Source of the DNA: Marinigracilibium pacificum
GTDB lineage: Bacteria; Bacteroidota; Bacteroidia; Cytophagales; Cyclobacteriaceae
Assembly (NCBI RefSeq): GCF_012926615.1
Contig: NZ_JABBNU010000014.1
Span: forward strand, 62,001 to 126,000
Direction of reading: 5' to 3'
Length of the DNA stretch: 64,000 nucleotides
In this document: positions 2,966 through 41,859 of the stretch, piece after piece
How the letters are laid out: each line of letters opens with the position of its first letter
How positions within the stretch are numbered: position 1 is the first letter of the stretch
The notes under the pieces: model-generated
What the model saw: the letters and a program-made list of their open reading frames with translations, nothing else
Database searches by the model: none
What the model was told of the DNA's origin: nothing
Translations under genes and position numbers: made by a program

Positions 2966-4963
2966 TTAATTAGATCCTGAAATCACGATTTGATCAAGAT
3001 ATACTGCTTCATTTCCACTGTTAGATTCGAATTCAACTATCAATTGGGCAGTAGTTTTACCACTTAAATTGCCATTTAATAGTGTCCACATACCTTCAAG
3101 ACCTAGATCATCAATGTCTTGTCCTTCGGTGTTGATTAATTCAATATTACCATCGTTAGTGATTACATAAACTTTTAAATAATCAGTTGCTTCATAACTG
3201 TCACTGTTAAAGAATACTGACATGGTAATGTCTACATTCGAATACGAACTGATGTCCACTGTTTCAAAAGTTAATTTAACTTTTCCATCAGTATCACTTA
3301 ATTGATATCCCTGGTTTCCTTCTGCATAGCTTCCTACTGCACCAGTAAAATCTGTAAATCCTACATAATCACCATCTGTTAATCCAACTCCATCTTGTGT
3401 GTTGTAATAAAATGCATCAAATGCCATTTCGTTACCCGAACCATCGTACTCAATCATCATTACAGAATCAGCATAGTTTGTTAAATCATGGTCTGTAGCC
3501 TGATCTCCCTGATCGATATATATTTTACCAAGAGAACCTTCTTCAAATGATGTATATGCAATAACGGCAGCAGGGTTATCTTCAGTTCCACTTACGCTAA
3601 TTGATTTACTTTCCATACCTGGTGAAGTAATAGAGATTTCTCCGCTAATAGATCCTGAAACTCCGGAATCTGGTGTGAACCTTACAAAAATTTCAATATT
3701 ACCTGCTTCAAATTCTCCTATTGAAAGAGTGATTTCAGATGAGAAGTTCACACCGTCAAGTGAGATTTCGAAATTGTTTGGAGCATATAGTGTAACATCT
3801 CCTATCAGGTCTGTAGCTGCAATTGTAAATGAAACTGCATCCGATGACTCACCAGATGTAATTGTACCGAAATCGGCCAAAGCACCATTGTCAACTCCGG
3901 TAAATATTATTTGAGTATTACCATTGCTTTCAAAGATGTCAGTCTCTTTAATTGGTATAAGTTGAGCTGAGTTATACATTCCGGCAATACCAGAAAGTGT
4001 TCCTTTTCCTGTTGGTATTACAATCTCCTTAAACGGAGCATAACTCTCAACTCTTAATACAGATTCATTACTTCCGTCTGAGAATTTAGTGTTACCTGCA
4101 ATTGTTGAACCATCCGGATTTGAGAAATATACATTTTCAATTGTTACTAATGTGCTTTGGTAATCATTAGAGTTAAGCTGCTCAATAGTGATAACAACAG
4201 GTGAGGGAAGAGTTCCAGCTCCTTTTGATTCCGCAAGAGAGAGATTCAGGTTTGAAATTTGAATTAACCCATTAAAATCGTAAAGTCTCCCTCCGTTTAT
4301 GTTTACAAGAACTGAATCTCCCTGAGTTAAAGTATTATTGTCTTGAAATCTTAATACAATTCCTCCAGTGTGATCCTGAATAAAAACATTTTTGCTCTGT
4401 ATGTTGTCATTTGTAGAAATTACAATACCACCTGTATATAAGTCTTCAGTAAATGTTGAGTCGTTATCAGTATTGCTTTCATAGATTGACTTTAACTCAG
4501 CAATGTTTAAGATTGTCATATCCGGTTCATCGTCCTTAATTGTAACAATGTGTTCCAAAGTTTCGCCAAGTTGAATCATTTCTGAATCTGAGCTTATAAC
4601 AAAGGAAATAGTTTTGTCTTCATTTCTATCAGCATTGTCAACAGGCTTTACGAAAAATGAAACTTTTGTAGCACCAGCTTCAAATGGTAAGGTAATAACA
4701 TCGTTGCTAGATGAAGGTGTAGTGACAAAATCACTTCCGGAAGTATTAGCGTCTGGAGTTAATGTTACTAATATTGTTCCTGACTGCTGGGCTTCAGTAC
4801 TGAAGTTGATTTCTACTAAAGTCCCCTGGCTTACGTTTTCCATTACAACTGAAGAAGCTGATTTAAAACCTACTTCAGGAATTACTACAGGCTCTTCGTC
4901 TTTACAGCTATTCAATGCTGTCATGGCCAGAACCAGAATTACTAAATATTTAATTTTCTGCAT
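2966..4963 (-). CDS. Surface lipoprotein with Calx-beta-like and DUF5689 domains
   Basis: 665 residues. Lipoprotein signal peptide with lipobox ALNSC (Cys20) followed by acidic KDEEP, a pattern that favours surface export in Bacteroidota. Residues about 30-147 look like a Calx-beta/immunoglobulin-type domain ending in IKDDEPD. Residues about 150-340 fit DUF5689 (start ILNIAELKSIYES; KNVFIQDHTGGIVLRF; GDSVLVNINGG). Residues about 350-465 form another beta-sandwich. The last 200 residues are a jelly-roll-like domain ending in AVYLDQIVISGSN. It is the last of four minus-strand genes led by a TonB receptor, so it probably captures substrate or anchors enzymes at the surface. Domain names are by eye; ligand unknown. 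Confidence 0.75.
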   Translation of the reverse strand: MQKIKYLVILVLAMTALNSCKDEEPVVIPEVGFKSASSVVMENVSQGTLVEINFSTEAQQSGTILVTLTPDANTSGSDFVTTPSSSNDVITLPFEAGATKVSFFVKPVDNADRNEDKTISFVISSDSEMIQLGETLEHIVTIKDDEPDMTILNIAELKSIYESNTDNDSTFTEDLYTGGIVISTNDNIQSKNVFIQDHTGGIVLRFQDNNTLTQGDSVLVNINGGRLYDFNGLIQISNLNLSLAESKGAGTLPSPVVITIEQLNSNDYQSTLVTIENVYFSNPDGSTIAGNTKFSDGSNESVLRVESYAPFKEIVIPTGKGTLSGIAGMYNSAQLIPIKETDIFESNGNTQIIFTGVDNGALADFGTITSGESSDAVSFTIAATDLIGDVTLYAPNNFEISLDGVNFSSEITLSIGEFEAGNIEIFVRFTPDSGVSGSISGEISITSPGMESKSISVSGTEDNPAAVIAYTSFEEGSLGKIYIDQGDQATDHDLTNYADSVMMIEYDGSGNEMAFDAFYYNTQDGVGLTDGDYVGFTDFTGAVGSYAEGNQGYQLSDTDGKVKLTFETVDISSYSNVDITMSVFFNSDSYEATDYLKVYVITNDGNIELINTEGQDIDDLGLEGMWTLLNGNLSGKTTAQLIVEFESNSGNEAVYLDQIVISGSN

Positions 4964-33740: not shown

Positions 33741-33838
33741 AAAAAAAAGGCGAGCCGACATCGCACCGCTCAACTATCTACCCTTGCTTCATTCCTGACC
33801 TGGGGGAGTTCGATAGGAGCTGGTCGTGCCTGCTCGCG
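33741..33838 (-). ncRNA. ffs: Signal recognition particle RNA, small bacterial type
   Basis: On the minus strand the conserved SRP helix-8 loop core reads CCCAGGTCAGGAATGAAGCA, equivalent to the AGGUCaGGAA...GAAGCAg core of 4.5S RNA. The ends pair (GCGAGC near 33837 with GCTCGC near 33750), and an eight-T terminator tract follows (A-tract at 33741-33748). A TACCTTTG -7 box (complement of 33843-33850) sits directly before the 5' end. Length about 90 nt fits the small Bacteroidota SRP RNA, which binds Ffh for co-translational targeting. Confidence 0.93.
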
Positions 33839-33842
33839 GATG

Positions 33843-33850
33843 CAAAGGTA
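33843..33850 (-). promoter_or_regulatory. -7 box of the SRP RNA gene
   Basis: Minus strand TACCTTTG, exact TAnnTTTG, ending 5-7 nt before the RNA start. The -33 region is weak. Confidence 0.5.
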
Positions 33851-38002: not shown

Positions 38003-38023
38003 TCAGATTTTATATAAAACCAG

Positions 38024-38056
38024 GCCATCGGAGTTTTCTTCGATGGCTTTTTTTTT
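38024..38056 (+). terminator. Terminator of the M13 peptidase gene
   Basis: Stem GCCATCG / CGATGGC followed by nine or more Ts. Repeat copy A begins five bases after the T-run. Confidence 0.82.
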
Positions 38057-38060
38057 ATCA

Positions 38061-38185
38061 GCGTTATAAACGCAATTCTCTAACAACCTCTTATGCTTCG
38101 CTAAACAAGGGCAATGAATAGTAACGTGAGTCAATCGTCCTTGTTTGGAACGAGGATGTTAGAGGTTGGTATTTGTAATGTCTTG
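38061..38185 (+). repeat. Structured 125-bp repeat, copy A
   Basis: One of three copies (others 39803-39928 and 41192-41317) in the same orientation. It opens with a small hairpin GCGTT-ATA-AACGC, then a long hairpin: outer arms 38078-38085 (CTCTAACA) and 38157-38164 (TGTTAGAG), a middle CCTC/GAGG part, inner arms AAACAAGG (38103-38110) and CCTTGTTT (38139-38146). It ends with a small hairpin GGTAT-TTGTA-ATGTC. About 85% identical to copies B and C, with differences that keep the stems. A further CGACATTTGTAATGTCG palindrome follows at 38214-38230. Confidence 0.85.
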
Positions 38186-38267
38186 TTTAGTTTATTCTTC
38201 AATTACTGCTGCTCGACATTTGTAATGTCGTACCCCTATCGTAGGATCTGTGATCTGGATTAAATTA

Positions 38268-38310
38268 CCCCCCCTGGCGCGCGTTGCTTTTTCAGCATAA
38301 CGCGTGCCGT
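38268..38310 (-). repeat. REP palindrome upstream of the transposase gene (left copy)
   Basis: Imperfect palindrome GGCGCGCGTT ... AACGCGTGCC (38276-38285 / 38299-38308) preceded by a C-tract (CCCCCCCT). It is the inverted counterpart of the REP at 38951-38988 on the other side of the transposase gene: both share the GGCGCGCGT stem next to a C or G tract. Confidence 0.75.
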
Positions 38311-38399
38311 ACATTTTCCATCTCAATTCCATTATTTATTTTGATATAGTCTCTATCTGATATATTTTTCCAGTATCAACTATTGCCTAATCAAAACTG

Positions 38400-38954
38400 A
38401 TGTCTGAAAAGTATAAATTTAATAATCCGGAAGGGATATATTTTGTTACTTGTACTGTAGTTTTTTGGATTGATTTATTTACCAGGAAAGAGTATAAGCA
38501 TGTTTTATTGGATACGTTGGAGTATTATCAGAGAAAAAGAGGATTAACTGTTCATGCCTATTGTATCATGCCAAGCCATATCCATATGATATTAAGCGTG
38601 AATAAAGACGGTGAAAGCTTATCTGCTATAATGCGAGATTTTAAAAAACTTAGTAATAAGCGGATCATATCGGAAATAGGCAGAATTAATGAAAGTAGAA
38701 GTGAGTGGTTGTTAAGAGCTTTTAAACATGCAGGGAGTAAATTGAAAAGGATAACTTCAAATAAGATATGGATGGATGGAAACCATCCGATAGAATTGGA
38801 TAATAATATAATGATTGAGCAAAGACTTGATTATATCCATAATAATCCGGTAGATGCAGAAATAGTAGATGAGGCTGAAAATTACTGGTACAGTTCAGCA
38901 AGAGATTATTTTGATTATAAAAAGGGGCTTTTAAATGTGGAGCTGTTATTGTAG
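38400..38954 (+). CDS. REP-associated tyrosine transposase (RAYT, IS200/Y1 family)
   Basis: 184 residues. Y1 transposase HUH motif in CIMPSHIHMIL (His60, His62), an early GIYFVTCTVVFWIDLF strand, and the C-terminal helix with the catalytic Tyr in EQRLDYIHNNPVDAEIV. RAYTs cut and join single-stranded REP palindromes; they are domesticated or single-copy relatives of IS200 transposases. It is flanked on both sides by inverted REP palindromes; the right one starts on the stop codon. The gene appears intact. Confidence 0.92.
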   Translation: MSEKYKFNNPEGIYFVTCTVVFWIDLFTRKEYKHVLLDTLEYYQRKRGLTVHAYCIMPSHIHMILSVNKDGESLSAIMRDFKKLSNKRIISEIGRINESRSEWLLRAFKHAGSKLKRITSNKIWMDGNHPIELDNNIMIEQRLDYIHNNPVDAEIVDEAENYWYSSARDYFDYKKGLLNVELLL

Positions 38955-38988
38955 TCACGCGTATTGCTTCGCTACGCGCGCCAGGGGG
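38951..38988 (+). repeat. REP palindrome downstream of the transposase gene (right copy)
   Basis: GTAG at 38951-38954 (overlapping the TAG stop) followed by a hairpin CACGCGTA ... TACGCGCG and CCAGGGGG. A 5' GTAG tetranucleotide before the palindrome is the classic recognition guide of RAYT proteins. It matches, in inverse orientation, the left REP at 38268-38310. Confidence 0.78.
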
Positions 38989-39108
38989 AGTTTATCTTTC
39001 TGATCTATCCAGACTCATATTTCGTTTTGGTAATACAATTGTCCACTAACTTTTAAAAAATCAAAAATAACATTATGATTTTGCAACTAAATATAGTTAC
39101 TTTAAGTT

Positions 39109-39351
39109 ATGTCTAAAAGGGAGAAACTACTTCAACGGTTTCTAACCATTCCATCGGATTTTCATTATTCTGAGATGGTTAATTTGTTAGGCTATTTTGG
39201 CTTCAAGGAAGTTAAAAAAGGAAAAACTTCGGGTTCCAGGGTAAAGTTTGAAAATGCAGAAGGTGTTCCAATAATGCTTCATAAACCTCACCCTAATGGA
39301 ATTATGAAAAGGTATCAAATGATTCAGATAAAGGAGGTTTTAGGATTATGA
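39109..39351 (+). CDS. hicA: HicA family mRNA interferase toxin
   Basis: 80 residues. A dsRBD-like fold: YSEMVNLLGYFGFKEVKKGKTSGSRVKFEN, then LHKPHPNG with the HPH-type segment and a final helix. HicA toxins cut mRNA when free of HicB. The catalytic His of most HicA is in a GSHhx strand; here that stretch reads GSRV, and the remaining His residues are in HKPHP, so activity should be checked. The gene overlaps hicB by 4 bp (ATGA). Confidence 0.82.
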   Translation: MSKREKLLQRFLTIPSDFHYSEMVNLLGYFGFKEVKKGKTSGSRVKFENAEGVPIMLHKPHPNGIMKRYQMIQIKEVLGL

Positions 39352-39689
39352 AATATTTAAATTATAAAGGATATGCTGGAAGTATTGAGTACAGTCCGGA
39401 TGATAATTTACTTTACGGTAAAGTGTTAGGTATTAAAGGGTTGATCTCTTATGAAGGAGAAACCGGCAAACAATTAGAACAAGACTTTATCCAGGCAATA
39501 AATGAATATCTTAATGATTGTAAAGTAAAGGGAATTATGGCAGAAAAACCTTTCAAGGGGAGCTTTAATGTTCGGATTTCCGCAAAACTTCATGAGAAGG
39601 TGGCTTTAATGGCTATGGAATTGAAAACATCTTTAAATAATTTAGTTGCGGAAGCAATCAGAGAAAAAGTAACTAATGAAGGAGGCTAA
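39348..39689 (+). CDS. hicB: HicB family antitoxin
   Basis: 113 residues. N-terminal partial RNase H-like fold (MKYLNYKGYAGSIEYSPDDNLLYGKVLGIKGLISYEGE) and a C-terminal ribbon-helix-helix DNA-binding segment (FNVRISAKLHEKVALMAMELKTSLNNLVAEAI). It neutralises HicA and represses the operon. The order toxin-antitoxin with ATGA overlap is usual for hicAB. A Rho-independent terminator follows. Confidence 0.88.
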   Translation: MKYLNYKGYAGSIEYSPDDNLLYGKVLGIKGLISYEGETGKQLEQDFIQAINEYLNDCKVKGIMAEKPFKGSFNVRISAKLHEKVALMAMELKTSLNNLVAEAIREKVTNEGG

Positions 39690-39764
39690 TGTTCTGTTAT
39701 CAATTTTATTAGAATCAATATTAGGTTGATTCAAGGATTAAAAAGATTAATAAAACATAAAAAA

Positions 39765-39794
39765 AGTCTTCAGATTATTTCTGGAGGCTTTTTA
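39765..39794 (+). terminator. Terminator of hicAB
   Basis: AGTCTTCAGA / TCTGGAGGCT stem (with G-U pairs) followed by five Ts. It is part of the duplicated block; the second copy (41153-41183) has a degraded stem. Confidence 0.68.
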
Positions 39795-39802
39795 ATTTAT
39801 CT

Positions 39803-39928
39803 GCGTTACAAACGCAGTTCTTGGACACCCTCGTTATGCTTCGCTAAACAAGGGCAATTAATAGTAACGTGAGTCAATCGTCCTTGTTTGGAACGAGGAT
39901 GTTTGAGGTTGGCATTTGTAATGCCTTG
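39803..39928 (+). repeat. Structured 125-bp repeat, copy B
   Basis: Hairpin GCGTT-ACA-AACGC; long hairpin with outer arms CTTGGACA (39820-39827) and TGTTTGAG (39900-39907), middle CCTCGTT/AACGAGG (perfect here), inner AAACAAGG/CCTTGTTT; final hairpin GGCAT-TTGTA-ATGCC. Compared with copy A the outer arms differ at six positions but still pair, using G-U pairs. Confidence 0.85.
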
Positions 39929-40011
39929 CTGTTAGAAGTCTAGCGATAGCGTGAATTCAAACTTTTAATGAAAAACTTTACTGCCTTATGCTGACAGATA
40001 TTTCCCCAACA

Positions 40012-40060
40012 GGCGCAAGTATATTTAAAACGTCTAGCTCTGGTTCAAGTTTGAACCTGG
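40012..40060 (+). repeat. Short direct repeat D1
   Basis: About 50 bp, containing GCGCAAG, CTAGCTCTGGTTCAAGTTTG and the palindrome GGTTCAA-GT-TTGAACC. A second copy D2 is at 41045-41094 in the same orientation, immediately before repeat block C. Confidence 0.65.
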
Positions 40061-40208
40061 ACCAATCGTATTAGTTCTTTTAAAATCCCAACCTAACTGT
40101 TTTGCTCCGGATTGAGCCTTCATTTCCAGATAAGTAAAATGATTGAATTTAAGTTCCTGTATGGGCGGGAAACTCATTAATATTCTATAGTTTCGCTTAA
40201 CGACAACA

Positions 40209-40299
40209 GCACAAGAAAAATCTTGCGCCAGAGGGGGGGTAAATAAGAGATGTTCGCTTAATGACACCGGTACAAGTGAAAACTTGCACCAGGAGAGGG
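40209..40299 (+). repeat. Two G-tract palindromes (REP-like)
   Basis: 40209-40229 GCACAAG...CTTGCGCC followed by AGAGGGGGGG, and 40269-40290 GGTACAAG...CTTGCACC followed by AGGAGAGGG. Both follow a TTCGCTTAA(C/T)GACA sequence. Same architecture (palindrome, then CC, A, G-tract) as the RAYT-flanking REPs, but a different stem sequence. A probable decayed inverted copy lies at 41030-41060. Confidence 0.55.
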
Positions 40300-40463
40300 A
40301 ATTTAGAAATCAAGCATAGATTGATAGATCTGATAATAGGGGGGATATCAGAAAATGGTCGAGTTTTACCTTAATAAATTTGCAGAACAGGGTATAGTAT
40401 TCGATTTCACTAAGTTAGAAAAGAATTTAAAGGCATAACAAGAATTTTATAACAAAAAATATA
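40300..40463. other. Region with possible gene remnant
   Basis: 40354-40437 can be read as a 27-codon ORF starting MVEFYLNKFAEQ, too short to identify; it may be a leftover of a gene removed by rearrangement among the repeats, or chance. Nothing else is recognised. Confidence 0.25.
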
Positions 40464-40487
40464 TTGATTTTGAGGCTGATAGTAAAG

Positions 40488-41021
40488 ATGTCGATGTTAC
40501 TTTTTAGTGTTTTAAGTATTCATATAGCTTGTGAACCTAAAGACTCCAACTTAATAACAATTAATTCTAATAAAGGTATTACCTTGAATATGTTGATTGA
40601 TTATTATGATGAATTAAATGGTTATTGGGATAATGATGGTGTTTCGTCCAAATTTATTATTGAATTAGGAGATGAAAATAAGTTTCCTTTTAAATCTAGA
40701 ATTGTTAAAATACCTGATAATTTTCATAGAGAATTGGGACAAGTAAATTTTCCTTTGAAATGCGAAATGGTTTATGTTAATAAAAGACAGGTTTTATATA
40801 AAAACCAAGAGTATTCATGTGAAAATTTATCCTTTCTTATAAAGGATCAAAAGATCAAAAAAATATGTTTAGTAAGTCATAATAAAAATGAAAATTATTA
40901 TTTTATTTTAAAGTGCTTAATGAAATCAATTAGTAAAGAATACGGAGATAAAAGTGGAACTAATTTAGATATAGAGATTATATTTTATAAACCATCTAAT
41001 GATTTAATTTACCCTATTTAG
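40488..41021 (+). CDS. Orphan putative lipoprotein, function unknown
   Basis: 177 residues from the ATG at 40488; the longer reading (TTG at 40464) is unlikely because it adds charged residues before the signal peptide. Lipobox HIAC (about residue 16) in MSMLLFSVLSIHIACE. The rest is an unrecognised alpha/beta protein (MLIDYYDELNGYWDNDG; KICLVSHNKNENYYFILKCLMK). Base composition is more AT-rich than neighbours and it sits between repeat blocks, which suggests transfer. No homologous family was recognised. Confidence 0.55.
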   Translation: MSMLLFSVLSIHIACEPKDSNLITINSNKGITLNMLIDYYDELNGYWDNDGVSSKFIIELGDENKFPFKSRIVKIPDNFHRELGQVNFPLKCEMVYVNKRQVLYKNQEYSCENLSFLIKDQKIKKICLVSHNKNENYYFILKCLMKSISKEYGDKSGTNLDIEIIFYKPSNDLIYPI

Positions 41022-41044
41022 TCCGTCTGCCCCCCCCTCCCCAC

Positions 41045-41094
41045 AAGCGCAAGATTATCTTAACCGACTAGCTCTGGTTCAAGTTTGAACCTGG
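41045..41094 (+). repeat. Short direct repeat D2
   Basis: Partner of D1 (40012-40060), about 80% identical. It is followed by another palindrome CCTGGTT-TG-AACCAGG at 41100-41115. Confidence 0.65.
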
Positions 41095-41130
41095 ATCAAC
41101 CTGGTTTGAACCAGGATTTTCAAGATTCAA

Positions 41131-41393
41131 AGATTAATAAAACATAAAACAAAAGCCTTCAAATTATTTCTGGCGGCTTTTTAATTTATCTGCGTTACAA
41201 ACGCAGTTCTTGGACACCCTCGTTATGCTTCGCTAAACAAGGGCGATGAATAGTAACGTGAGTCAATCGTCCTTGTTTGGAACGAGGATGTTTGAGGTTG
41301 GCATTTGTAATGCCTTGCTGTTATAAGTCTAACGATAGCGTGAATTCAAACTTTTAATGAAAAACTTTACTGCCTTATATTGACAGATATTTC
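41131..41393 (+). repeat. Direct repeat C block (about 263 bp)
   Basis: Second copy of the 39744-40004 block. It contains the degraded terminator, structured repeat copy C (41192-41317) and the shared tail. Confidence 0.85.
41192..41317 (+). repeat. Structured 125-bp repeat, copy C
   Basis: Almost identical to copy B (few substitutions in loops, e.g. in the stretch after AAACAAGG). Outer arms CTTGGACA (41209-41216) and TGTTTGAG (41289-41296). Confidence 0.85.
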
Positions 41394-41533
41394 ACTTATT
41401 ATTTGGTTGTATCAATATGCCTTATGAGTAGTTATTTTTATCAAAGACTCATTGGTTACTATAGTATAATCGTTCAATATGACGGGTAGAGTGGGGTGGG
41501 TAATAAGTGATGATTTTTGATTTTAATTTGATT

Positions 41534-41560
41534 GTAGTGGGGCGTAGCATGCTATGCCCC
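41534..41560 (+). repeat. GTAG-led palindrome
   Basis: GTAG (41534-41537), one base, then GGGGCGTAGCA / TGCTATGCCCC (41539-41560), an 11-bp stem with one mismatch and no loop. The GTAG-before-palindrome layout resembles RAYT REPs. Confidence 0.5.
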
Positions 41561-41668
41561 CGCCATTGAGCATTAAAATTATTTCTTAAGTTGTTTTGTT
41601 CAGACAATTAAAATTTGTTAGTTAATTGTTAATATTTATGGAAATAATTAAAATTTAATCTATAAATG

Positions 41669-41699
41669 TTTGACAATTTAAATTGAACGATTACATTTG
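41669..41699 (+). promoter_or_regulatory. Promoter of the trp operon
   Basis: TTTG at 41669-41672, 19-nt spacer, TACATTTG at 41692-41699: both elements match the Bacteroidota housekeeping promoter. The expected transcription start is about 41704-41707, directly before the leader peptide. Confidence 0.72.
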
Positions 41700-41716
41700 T
41701 TTTTCAAATGACGACA

Positions 41717-41761
41717 ATGAATATACATAACGCATGGTACTGGTGGTACATCGAAAGATGA
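41717..41761 (+). CDS. trpL: trp operon leader peptide
   Basis: 14 codons reading MNIHNAWYWWYIER, then TGA. Three of 14 codons are Trp (TGG at 41735, 41741, 41744) with Tyr between and after. An in-frame ATG at 41708 would add MTT but is almost at the predicted transcript start, so 41717 is preferred. It senses charged tRNA-Trp by ribosome stalling. Too small for routine gene calling; supported by promoter, codon content and the terminator before trpE. Confidence 0.85.
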   Translation: MNIHNAWYWWYIER

Positions 41762-41835
41762 ACACGGAACCGTTATGTAGTTTAAGATATAGAAAATAAA
41801 TCTTTAAAGCTTGCCGGTTTCGGCAAGCTTTTTTT
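41724..41835 (+). promoter_or_regulatory. trp attenuator (leader RNA with alternative hairpins)
   Basis: Three elements are readable. (1) 41724-41732 TACATAACG pairs perfectly with 41771-41779, enclosing the Trp codons. (2) 41765-41772 CGGAACCG can pair with 41815-41822 CGGTTTCG (one G-U), an antiterminator. (3) The terminator is stem AAAGCTTGCC / GGCAAGCTTT (41806-41815 / 41822-41831) followed by Ts. A ribosome stalled on Trp codons would open (1) and free segment 41765-41779 for (2); a ribosome at the stop codon (41759-41761) would cover 41765-41772 and let (3) form. This resembles the Bacteroid-trp leader motif described in earlier RNA surveys, by memory. Confidence 0.78.
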
Positions 41836-41859
41836 TTGCGCTAAACTTTTTGAAGAAAA

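Follow-up and report, generated by a model that had tools for sequence, protein, structure and literature searches.

A 125-nt palindromic repeat of Marinigracilibium pacificum is probably a REP/BIME-like element of a group-5-type RAYT

A 125-nt element of Marinigracilibium pacificum, present in three copies in a stretch of 64 kb (the window, 64,000 nucleotides), can be assigned, with a probability of roughly 0.8, to the REP/BIME-like palindromic repeats of a group-5-type RAYT (REP-associated tyrosine transposase; TnpAREP subclass 2.6). An orphan RNA is an improbable reading. The element consists of two half-units inverted relative to each other, which together form an imperfect palindrome; each half-unit contains two small hairpins, in the order inner hairpin (type CCTCGTT-TGY-AACGAGG), short GAG linker and end hairpin (type GCATT-TGT-AATGC). 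Two palindromes are thus inverted within one element, as in BIMEs and REPINs, and a covariance model, R1, matches many of the same elements on both strands. The enzyme serving the element would be a RAYT encoded elsewhere in the genome, the C23 RAYT, and not the RAYT of the window; on this view the three copies here would be passengers.

All three copies of about 125 nt described in the initial annotation were found in the sequence, with their coordinates, hairpins and arms (Table 1). Copy A is 96% identical to B and to C, in each case over 95 nt. Copies B and C lie within one duplicated block, which leaves two independent sequences in the window, not enough by themselves for a covariation claim. 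The arms cited as covarying between A and B/C are present, but they represent this single comparison; likewise, the T-run noted before each copy exists, but in two cases rather than three. The broader proposal of a selected-looking structure with covarying stems has held, because the stems show compensating changes once more copies are added. Folding as single-stranded DNA beats dinucleotide shuffles on both strands of all three copies, with z scores on the + and - strands of -3.6 and -3.8 for copy A, -4.2 and -5.9 for copy B (1 of 200 shuffles equalled it on the + strand), and -5.8 and -6.6 for copy C. A hairpin scan found a sole TGY-loop hairpin in the window beyond copies A-C.

Table 1. Element copies, their hairpins and neighboring features in the window
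Feature	Position	Strand	Description
Copy A	38059..38187	.	imperfect palindrome; R1 131.7 bits
Copy A hp2' (5' end hairpin)	38061..38073	-	GCGTT-ATA-AACGC read on +
Copy A hp1' (inner hairpin, 5' half)	38087..38110	-	1 base shorter than in B/C
Copy A hp1 (inner hairpin, 3' half)	38139..38155	+	CCTTGTT-TGG-AACGAGG
Copy A hp2 (3' end hairpin)	38168..38182	+	GGTATT-TGT-AATGTC
Further TGY-loop hairpin	38214..38230	+	CGACATT-TGT-AATGTCG; hairpin scan
Window RAYT gene	38400..38954	+	48% identical to C23 RAYT
Copy-B block	39730..40004	+	duplicated at 41119-41393; 275 nt, 92%
Copy B	39801..39927	.	R1 150.8 bits
Copy B hp2'	39801..39817	-	CTGCGTT-ACA-AACGCAG on +
Copy B hp1'	39829..39853	-	CCTCGTT ... 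AACAAGG on +
Copy B hp1	39882..39898	+	CCTTGTT-TGG-AACGAGG
Copy B hp2	39911..39925	+	GGCATT-TGT-AATGCC
Copy-C block	41119..41393	+	duplicate of 39730-40004
Copy C	41190..41316	.	R1 153.8 bits
Copy C hp2'	41190..41206	-	
Copy C hp1'	41218..41242	-	
Copy C hp1	41271..41287	+	
Copy C hp2	41300..41314	+	

The C23 RAYT gene (G000:C23:252.8-253.4 kb) has element material on both flanks, the upstream copy being weak. A syntenic RAYT block with copies beside it is found in all three congeneric genomes, and secondary structures that have copies elsewhere in the genome flank both the C23 RAYT and its orthologues in the two genus mates. The C23 RAYT scores 104.3 bits and the window RAYT 98.2 bits against NF047646 (REP-associated tyrosine transposase; cut-off 80), whereas the C23 RAYT reaches 30 bits on the NCBIfam IS200 model, below the cut-off of 55. 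Residues H61, H63 and Y145 are invariant (n=27). The predicted RAYT structure (pLDDT 93) has its best Protein Data Bank match in 4er8, a RAYT bound to a REP hairpin, with the ISDra2 and IS608 transposases ranking behind. The window RAYT was considered as the cognate enzyme and rejected: it is flanked by its own, different inverted repeat (I3) and, being 48% identical to the C23 RAYT, is probably not the enzyme. Two other RAYTs of the genome, L040 and L046, have hairpins that by eye carry other loops.

Across 59 genomes, the element and a RAYT of at least 55% identity, a cut-off chosen after the list had been seen, occur together in 8, the element alone in 1, the RAYT alone in 2 and neither in 48 (Fisher's test, 1.8e-7). 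Without the three genomes of the same genus the counts are 5, 1, 2 and 48 (p 3.2e-5). The R1 matches in outgroup genomes are mostly weak, with a best E per genome of 4e-7 to 1e-2, and in one genome, G030, R1 finds matches although no close RAYT is present.

Related RAYT genes carry hairpins of the same kind at 64 of 80 loci, all fetched with one query, and the element, for which the initial annotation knew no name, thus appears to be a REP-like palindrome of a RAYT. Upstream of these genes loop TGY outnumbers RCA by 87 to 14, and downstream RCA outnumbers TGY by 64 to 11; that is, the TGY hairpins face inward from both sides. Hairpin density is 2.88 per kb upstream and 2.05 per kb downstream, compared to 0.05-0.11 farther away, an approximately 26-fold enrichment. 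In a second sample, of 27 loci, the pattern is the same (26:6 upstream, 22:3 downstream). An oriented hairpin is absent within 400 nt at 16 of the 80 loci and is absent at 8 of the 27. At E<=0.01, R1 itself has matches in 10 of the 80 loci, and doublets of two TTTGYAA hairpins were detected by script in only 8.

The pairing around TTTGYAA words, which were not chosen by pairing, supports this picture. Outer pairs 1-4 of inward words are Watson-Crick in 0.89, 0.85, 0.88 and 0.74 of cases, compared to 0.44, 0.41, 0.38 and 0.37 far away. With one word per locus the four pairs form in 56, 53, 55 and 46 of 63, against shuffled means of 27.5, 19.3, 19.3 and 20.3 (0 of 2000 shuffles for each). Words in the wrong orientation near RAYTs (69 words, 39 loci) pair at 0.49-0.59, somewhat above background. 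G-T and A-C mismatches are even in number near RAYTs, except at outer pair 5 (61:8, or 22:5 with one per locus). The stems vary with compensating changes, while the tip is usually constant; the Mantel correlation between RAYT and stem is small (r 0.19, 0 of 2000). A GT[AG]G foot, the mark of the canonical REP, stands 0-2 nt 5' of the stem in 2 of 145 hairpins near related RAYTs.

Bacteria are believed to retain REP-transposases as domesticated enzymes. In the mechanism proposed for the element, the TGY strand of each half-unit would fold when the DNA becomes single-stranded, and the RAYT would bind the hairpin, probably reading its apex. The HuH histidines and the tyrosine could then nick and rejoin strands beside the hairpin, so that elements would be copied or moved to intergenic sites and tandem arrays would grow locally, while the RAYT gene itself would remain in place. 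A tentative extension, at somewhat less than even odds, is a Bacteroidota-wide lineage of REP-transposases that may recognize chiefly a fixed TT-TGY-AA tip on a free stem, without a GTAG foot, and act on units that flank their own gene on both sides, face inward and sometimes comprise two hairpins. If true, the phylum-wide apex motif on free stems would provide a simple, testable rule for a RAYT group in which no studied member was found. It would also name a class of hairpin repeats in the intergenic regions of Bacteroidota.

Classical REPs occur as hundreds of scattered copies. The present element differs from classical REP/BIME/REPIN systems in having tens of clustered, partly tandem copies and two hairpins per half, and in that the GT[AG]G foot is nearly absent. 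It shares with them inverted pairs of palindromes, an intergenic location and a stationary RAYT gene (PMC6006769, PMC8266576); strand-specific recognition of folded single-stranded DNA is expected to be shared as well. The three systems dissected for recognition in PMC8266576 carry the GTAG foot. In two group-3 systems of the same paper no change is accepted at certain positions of the loop, so that the reading of a loop has precedent. The IS200/IS605 transposases resemble the present system in their Y1 HuH fold and in the hairpins near the ends, but the C23 RAYT is below the IS200-model cut-off and no RAYT lies between the ends of an element among the copies looked at.

RAYT group 5 is TnpAREP subclass 2.6, for which flanking 'atypical secondary structures' are on record (Quentin et al. 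2018, PMC6006769). The same source describes these enzymes as mostly from Bacteroidetes, about 179 aa long, with motifs NH[LIV]H, WQ, YIH[QN]NP and SS and a median HuH-Y spacing of 82, and their flanking structures as copied elsewhere in the genome and lacking a GT[AG]G foot. The present system agrees in its Bacteroidetes host, HuH and YIHxNP motifs, flanking structures with genome copies and missing foot. In the C23 RAYT, NHIH, SS and a length of 182 aa agree with the published subclass, whereas YIHDNP and WK deviate. Among 82 RAYTs (the 80 loci, the C23 RAYT and the window RAYT), NH[LIV]H is found in 43, YIH[QN]NP in 33, YSS in 57 and WQ, by a rough pattern, in 39; the median spacing is 85 and the median length 176. 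The placement of the enzyme in group 5 is thus suggested by its partly matching motifs, its phylum and its flanks. The sections used of PMC6006769 give no consensus for the flanking structures, whereas the measurements made here cover a TTTGYAA apex, an inward orientation, half-units of two hairpins and a palindromic pair. The element is of a known kind, but the shared apex and inward layout were not found in print, supplementary material and tables aside; the supplementary table of PMC6006769 may already record part of them.

BLAST finds 52 matches to the element in its own genome. The covariance-model search for copies that the initial annotation had proposed gave 36, 15 and 48 R1 matches in the own genome and two genus mates (G000, G001 and G002). 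Merged across strands, these are 35, 10 and 34 places, grouped into 11, 5 and 10 clusters and in part tandem; copies thus exist beyond the three. In the own genome 51 of 52 copies lie outside ORFs of at least 100 aa. The compared sites, which carry other repeats too, showed neither a clean empty site nor a target duplication, so that movement of the element is something we infer. Some REPs have been proposed as mRNA 3'-end stabilizers or terminators, and an element of RAYT origin could have been co-opted for such a present role at gene ends. The strong hairpins and the flanking ORFs of the 52 copies (convergent 30, tandem 21, divergent 1, array copies counted singly) would suit this role, which is compatible with a RAYT repeat. 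It is nevertheless unlikely, since 20 of 51 copies are at least 300 nt from the nearest gene end, many of them in tandem arrays; the positions may merely reflect tolerated insertion sites.

It is more doubtful still that the element is a structured non-coding or cis-regulatory RNA (riboswitch or sRNA) made from the + strand, as the stability of its fold, its G-U pairs and the compensating changes in its stems might suggest. The G-T:A-C ratio on the + strand is 1:11 and 0:48 in the two hairpins of the 5' half and 16:5 and 7:1 in those of the 3' half, although 46 of the 48 A-C come from one column and the counted copies are related. The reversal between halves places the wobbles on the TGY-loop strand, hence on the - strand in the 5' half and on the + strand in the 3' half, and both strands fold; the initial assignment of the structure to the + strand therefore fails. 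An RNA product is also opposed by the many palindromic elements that R1 matches on both strands and by the lack of orientation bias toward the nearest gene end (of the 51 copies with such an end, 23 lie in the same and 28 in the opposite orientation). Furthermore, the hairpins that flank RAYT genes point inward on either side, and Rfam at the gathering threshold has no family on any copy (the only match in the window is RF04183 at 33746-33844). Such palindromes can mimic structured RNAs, covariation included.

Pairing was surveyed in 49 distinct copies, with the own genome and the genus mates scored separately. The 3' end hairpin, reported initially as paired in every copy, has standard pairs in 0.99 (own) and 0.98 (genus mates) of cells. 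The outer arms described with it are present in the window, but have standard pairs in 0.79 and 0.80 of cells, a weak helix outside the window; in an alignment of nine copies, six fail to form one of the outer-arm pairs. End-to-end pairing is kept in 0.74 of cells in the genus mates, compared to 0.98 for the own pairing of each end hairpin, and the outer arms and end-to-end pairing were rejected as the selected fold. The long inner pairings CCTCGTT/AACGAGG and AAACAAGGGCAAT/ATCGTCCTTGTTT are kept at 0.92/0.94 and 0.88/0.85, respectively. The local inner hairpin hp1' is kept at 0.84/0.85, no better than these, so that a long central hairpin, though weakened, keeps some plausibility as the fold. 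The same end-hairpin values, with the recurrence of inward hairpins at RAYT genes across the phylum, make it highly improbable that the inverted-repeat ends and multiple intergenic copies belong to a MITE-like element of a DDE transposase with an incidental RAYT link. Integron attC-like recombination sites, suggested by same-strand copies with small genes, including a HicAB pair, between them, are hardly credible, given the symmetric palindromic form of the copies, their link to a RAYT and the lack of an attC core evident by eye.

The pepO-trpE spacer is 3857 bp long here, whereas both genus mates have one of about 455 bp, and the RAYT, HicAB, ORF and copies are thus all extra here. The HicAB pair and the small ORF sit between the copies.

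The three elements of about 125 nt in the window, copies A, B and C, are most likely REP/BIME-like palindromes of a group-5-type RAYT (REP-associated tyrosine transposase), a known kind; the initial annotation's 'no name' is not borne out. They are a variant of this kind in which the apex is conserved and each of the paired halves has two hairpins. All three copies are present in the sequence where the initial annotation had placed them. Their common 95-nt core is 96% identical. Copies B and C lie inside one duplicated block (275 nt, 92%) and therefore count as a single event. Folded as single-stranded DNA, each copy beats dinucleotide shuffles on both the + and - strands (z -3.6 to -6.6); for the + strand of copy B, 1 of 200 shuffles folded equally well. 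Rfam has no family at the gathering threshold at the element copies.

Features of the window and parts of the element (window coordinates)
Feature	Coordinates	Sequence or content	Place in element	Basis
Copy A	38059..38187			
Copy B	39801..39927			
Copy C	41190..41316			
5' end hairpin		CTGCGTT-ACA-AACGCAG	outermost 5' part, then CTC	read from copies
Inner hairpin, 5' half		CCTCGTT...AACAAGG	after CTC, before variable middle	read from copies
Variable middle			between inner hairpins of 5' and 3' halves	read from copies
Inner hairpin, 3' half		CCTCGTT-TGY-AACGAGG	then GAG	read from copies
3' end hairpin		GGCATT-TGT-AATGCC	after GAG	read from copies
pepO-like/trpE-like spacer	38003-41859	3857 bp		
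Window RAYT	38400-38954 (+)			
Inverted repeat around window RAYT	38267-38287 / 38971-38991	C-run and G-T wobble in stem		
HicA/HicB toxin-antitoxin pair	39109-39351 and 39348-39689	between A and B		
Repeats	40005-40130, 40192-40299			by eye
ORF	40464-41021	no Pfam match		
Bacteroidales small SRP RNA	33746-33844 (-)	Rfam RF04183		

When reverse-complemented, the 3' half resembles the 5' half. Between congeners, the stem of the 3' end hairpin varies as GGCATT/AATGCC, GGCGAT/ATCGCC, GGCAAT/ATTGCC and GGCGTT/AACGCC; its loop is TGT as a rule, with TGG, TTT and TAT also present. Pairing was evaluated in 49 distinct copies (18, 4 and 27 from three genomes), to which merging of identical sequences had reduced an initial 52. 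The fraction of cells with standard pairs, in the own genome and the congeners respectively, is 0.99 and 0.98 for the 3' end hairpin and 0.88 and 0.98 for the 5' end hairpin. The two inner hairpins have 0.91/0.99 and 0.84/0.85, two long inner pairings 0.92/0.94 and 0.88/0.85, and the outer arm proposed initially 0.79/0.80; when the end hairpins are paired with one another the values are 0.86/0.74. Of the 6 pairs of the 3' end hairpin, 3 show compensating Watson-Crick changes; such changes occur once in every other local hairpin, at 1 of 8 pairs in the outer arm and 1 of 12 end to end, and at none in the long inner pairings among these copies. The small end hairpins are the best evidence of selection; the long central hairpin is a possible fold with weaker support.

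The initial annotation took the + strand as the structured one, as RNA or single-stranded DNA. Read on +, the two hairpins of the 5' half have G-T to A-C cell counts of 1:11 and 0:48, and those of the 3' half 16:5 and 7:1, so that the wobbles of each half sit on its TGY-loop strand and the + strand is not the sole structured strand. One column supplies 46 of the 48, and without it 36 G-T and 7 A-C cells are left on the TGY strands; the copies being related, these cells represent fewer events. The structural sense of the annotation was good, but its RNA option is not borne out. Of 52 copies, 51 are outside ORFs of at least 100 aa. With array copies counted singly, the neighbours of the 52 are convergent (30), tandem (21) or divergent (1), and both orientations to the nearest gene end are seen (23 same, 28 opposite). 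This placement agrees better with insertion at tolerated intergenic sites than with a strand-specific RNA.

A blast search with copy B gave 52 matches in the own genome (4.96 Mb, 37 contigs), chiefly on contigs C23, C7, C33, C1 and C6. Its SRP RNA and the relatives of its RAYT make this genome probably one of the Bacteroidota. A covariance model, R1, built from nine of its copies, matched 36 times there and 15 and 48 times in the two congeners. Many elements match on both strands because they are imperfect palindromes; after merging, the own genome has 35 places in 11 clusters, and the congeners have 10 in 5 and 34 in 10. Some congener arrays are tandem series with periods of about 182 and 186 nt. 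Among more distant genomes, 6 of 56 have R1 matches, mostly weak.

The RAYT in the window neighbours the copies and has its own inverted repeat, which by eye resembles hairpins at several flavobacterial RAYT loci. Pfam gives seven Y1 transposase matches in the own genome; similarity to another RAYT, at 252.8-253.4 kb of contig C23, gives eight. Element material flanks the C23 RAYT: full copies lie on one side, and on the other side there is a weak copy (R1, 41 bits). The block of this RAYT is syntenic in the two congeners, and their RAYTs share 73 and 74% identity with it. It scores 104 bits (cut-off 80) on the NCBIfam model for REP-associated tyrosine transposases, and H61, H63 and Y145 are invariant across 27 aligned sequences. 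The structure nearest to its predicted fold (pLDDT 93) is 4er8, in which a RAYT is in complex with a REP hairpin (E 1.8e-8, TM 0.61/0.66, rmsd 6.0), followed by IS200/IS605 transposases; the sequence match to 4er8 is weak (E 0.0013). Of 59 genomes, 8 have both the element and a RAYT of 55% identity or more, a cut-off set afterwards; 1 has the element alone, 2 have the RAYT alone and 48 have neither. As its transposase family suggests, the RAYT would nick, copy and insert the element; no empty site is readable in the compared sites.

Relatives of the C23 RAYT on genome contigs provided 80 loci, the best of 110, all but one (L103) named as groups of Bacteroidota. Within 400 nt of these genes, perfect hairpins of at least 6 pairs around three loop bases have TGY rather than RCA loops upstream (87 vs 14) and RCA rather than TGY loops downstream (64 vs 11); at 1-2.4 kb either class occurs at 0.05-0.11 per kb. 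At least one inward hairpin is found at 64 of the 80 loci, on both sides at 42, and none at 16. A further 27 loci, taken from the genomes of relatives and perhaps sharing organisms with the first sample, give counts of 26:6 and 22:3, with 19 positive loci. Independently of pairing, all inward TTTGYAA words (n=185) were taken: outer pairs 1-4 are Watson-Crick in 0.89, 0.85, 0.88 and 0.74, compared to 0.44, 0.41, 0.38 and 0.37 for far-away words (n=185) and 0.50, 0.49, 0.50 and 0.59 for near, wrongly oriented ones (n=69). With one word per locus (n=63), 56, 53, 55 and 46 are paired vs shuffled means of 27.5, 19.3, 19.3 and 20.3, counts reached in 0 of 2000 shuffles. All four Watson-Crick types are seen at each of these pairs; outer pair 5 is G-T in 61 vs A-C in 8 (22 vs 5, one per locus). 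Four consecutive C precede the stem (5') in 28 hairpins (18 loci) and follow it (3') in 2. RAYT distance correlates weakly with stem distance (r 0.19), beyond permutation (0 of 2000). A scan of the 64-kb window for TGY hairpins of this kind gave five, all at 38.2-41.3 kb. Seven of the 80 RAYT genes (L080, L082, L095, L114, L128, L150, L155) have stops or a frame shift, and some of these retain perfect flanking hairpins.

According to Quentin et al. (2018, PMC6006769), TnpAREP subclass 2.6 corresponds to RAYT group 5, is mostly from Bacteroidetes, and is flanked by atypical secondary structures that lack GT[AG]G and have copies elsewhere in the genome. The GT[AG]G foot is found in 2 of 145 hairpins near the related RAYTs; the published subclass-2.6 motifs fit only partially. 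In other RAYT groups the folded REP is recognised strand-specifically, and in two group-3 systems some loop positions tolerate no change, as Corneloup et al. (2021, PMC8266576) describe. TTTGTAA and TTTGCAA are absent from the main text of PMC3733652, where GTAG and CGTC palindromes are described. The apex rule was not found in the open-access journal literature searched.

In the two genus mates the spacer that here holds the copies is shorter, at about 455 bp, and a small ORF takes the place of the RAYT, HicAB, the ORF and copies A, B and C. By eye, the two repeats between B and C resemble the sequences flanking a further RAYT gene in the own genome (contig C5, L046), and are perhaps a second REP-like family beside the element. 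Another palindrome, GGGGCGTTGCATGCAACGCCCC, and a variant of it lie at ~4480-4510 and 7945-7975 of L038, a region syntenic to the element pair of one congener (G002).
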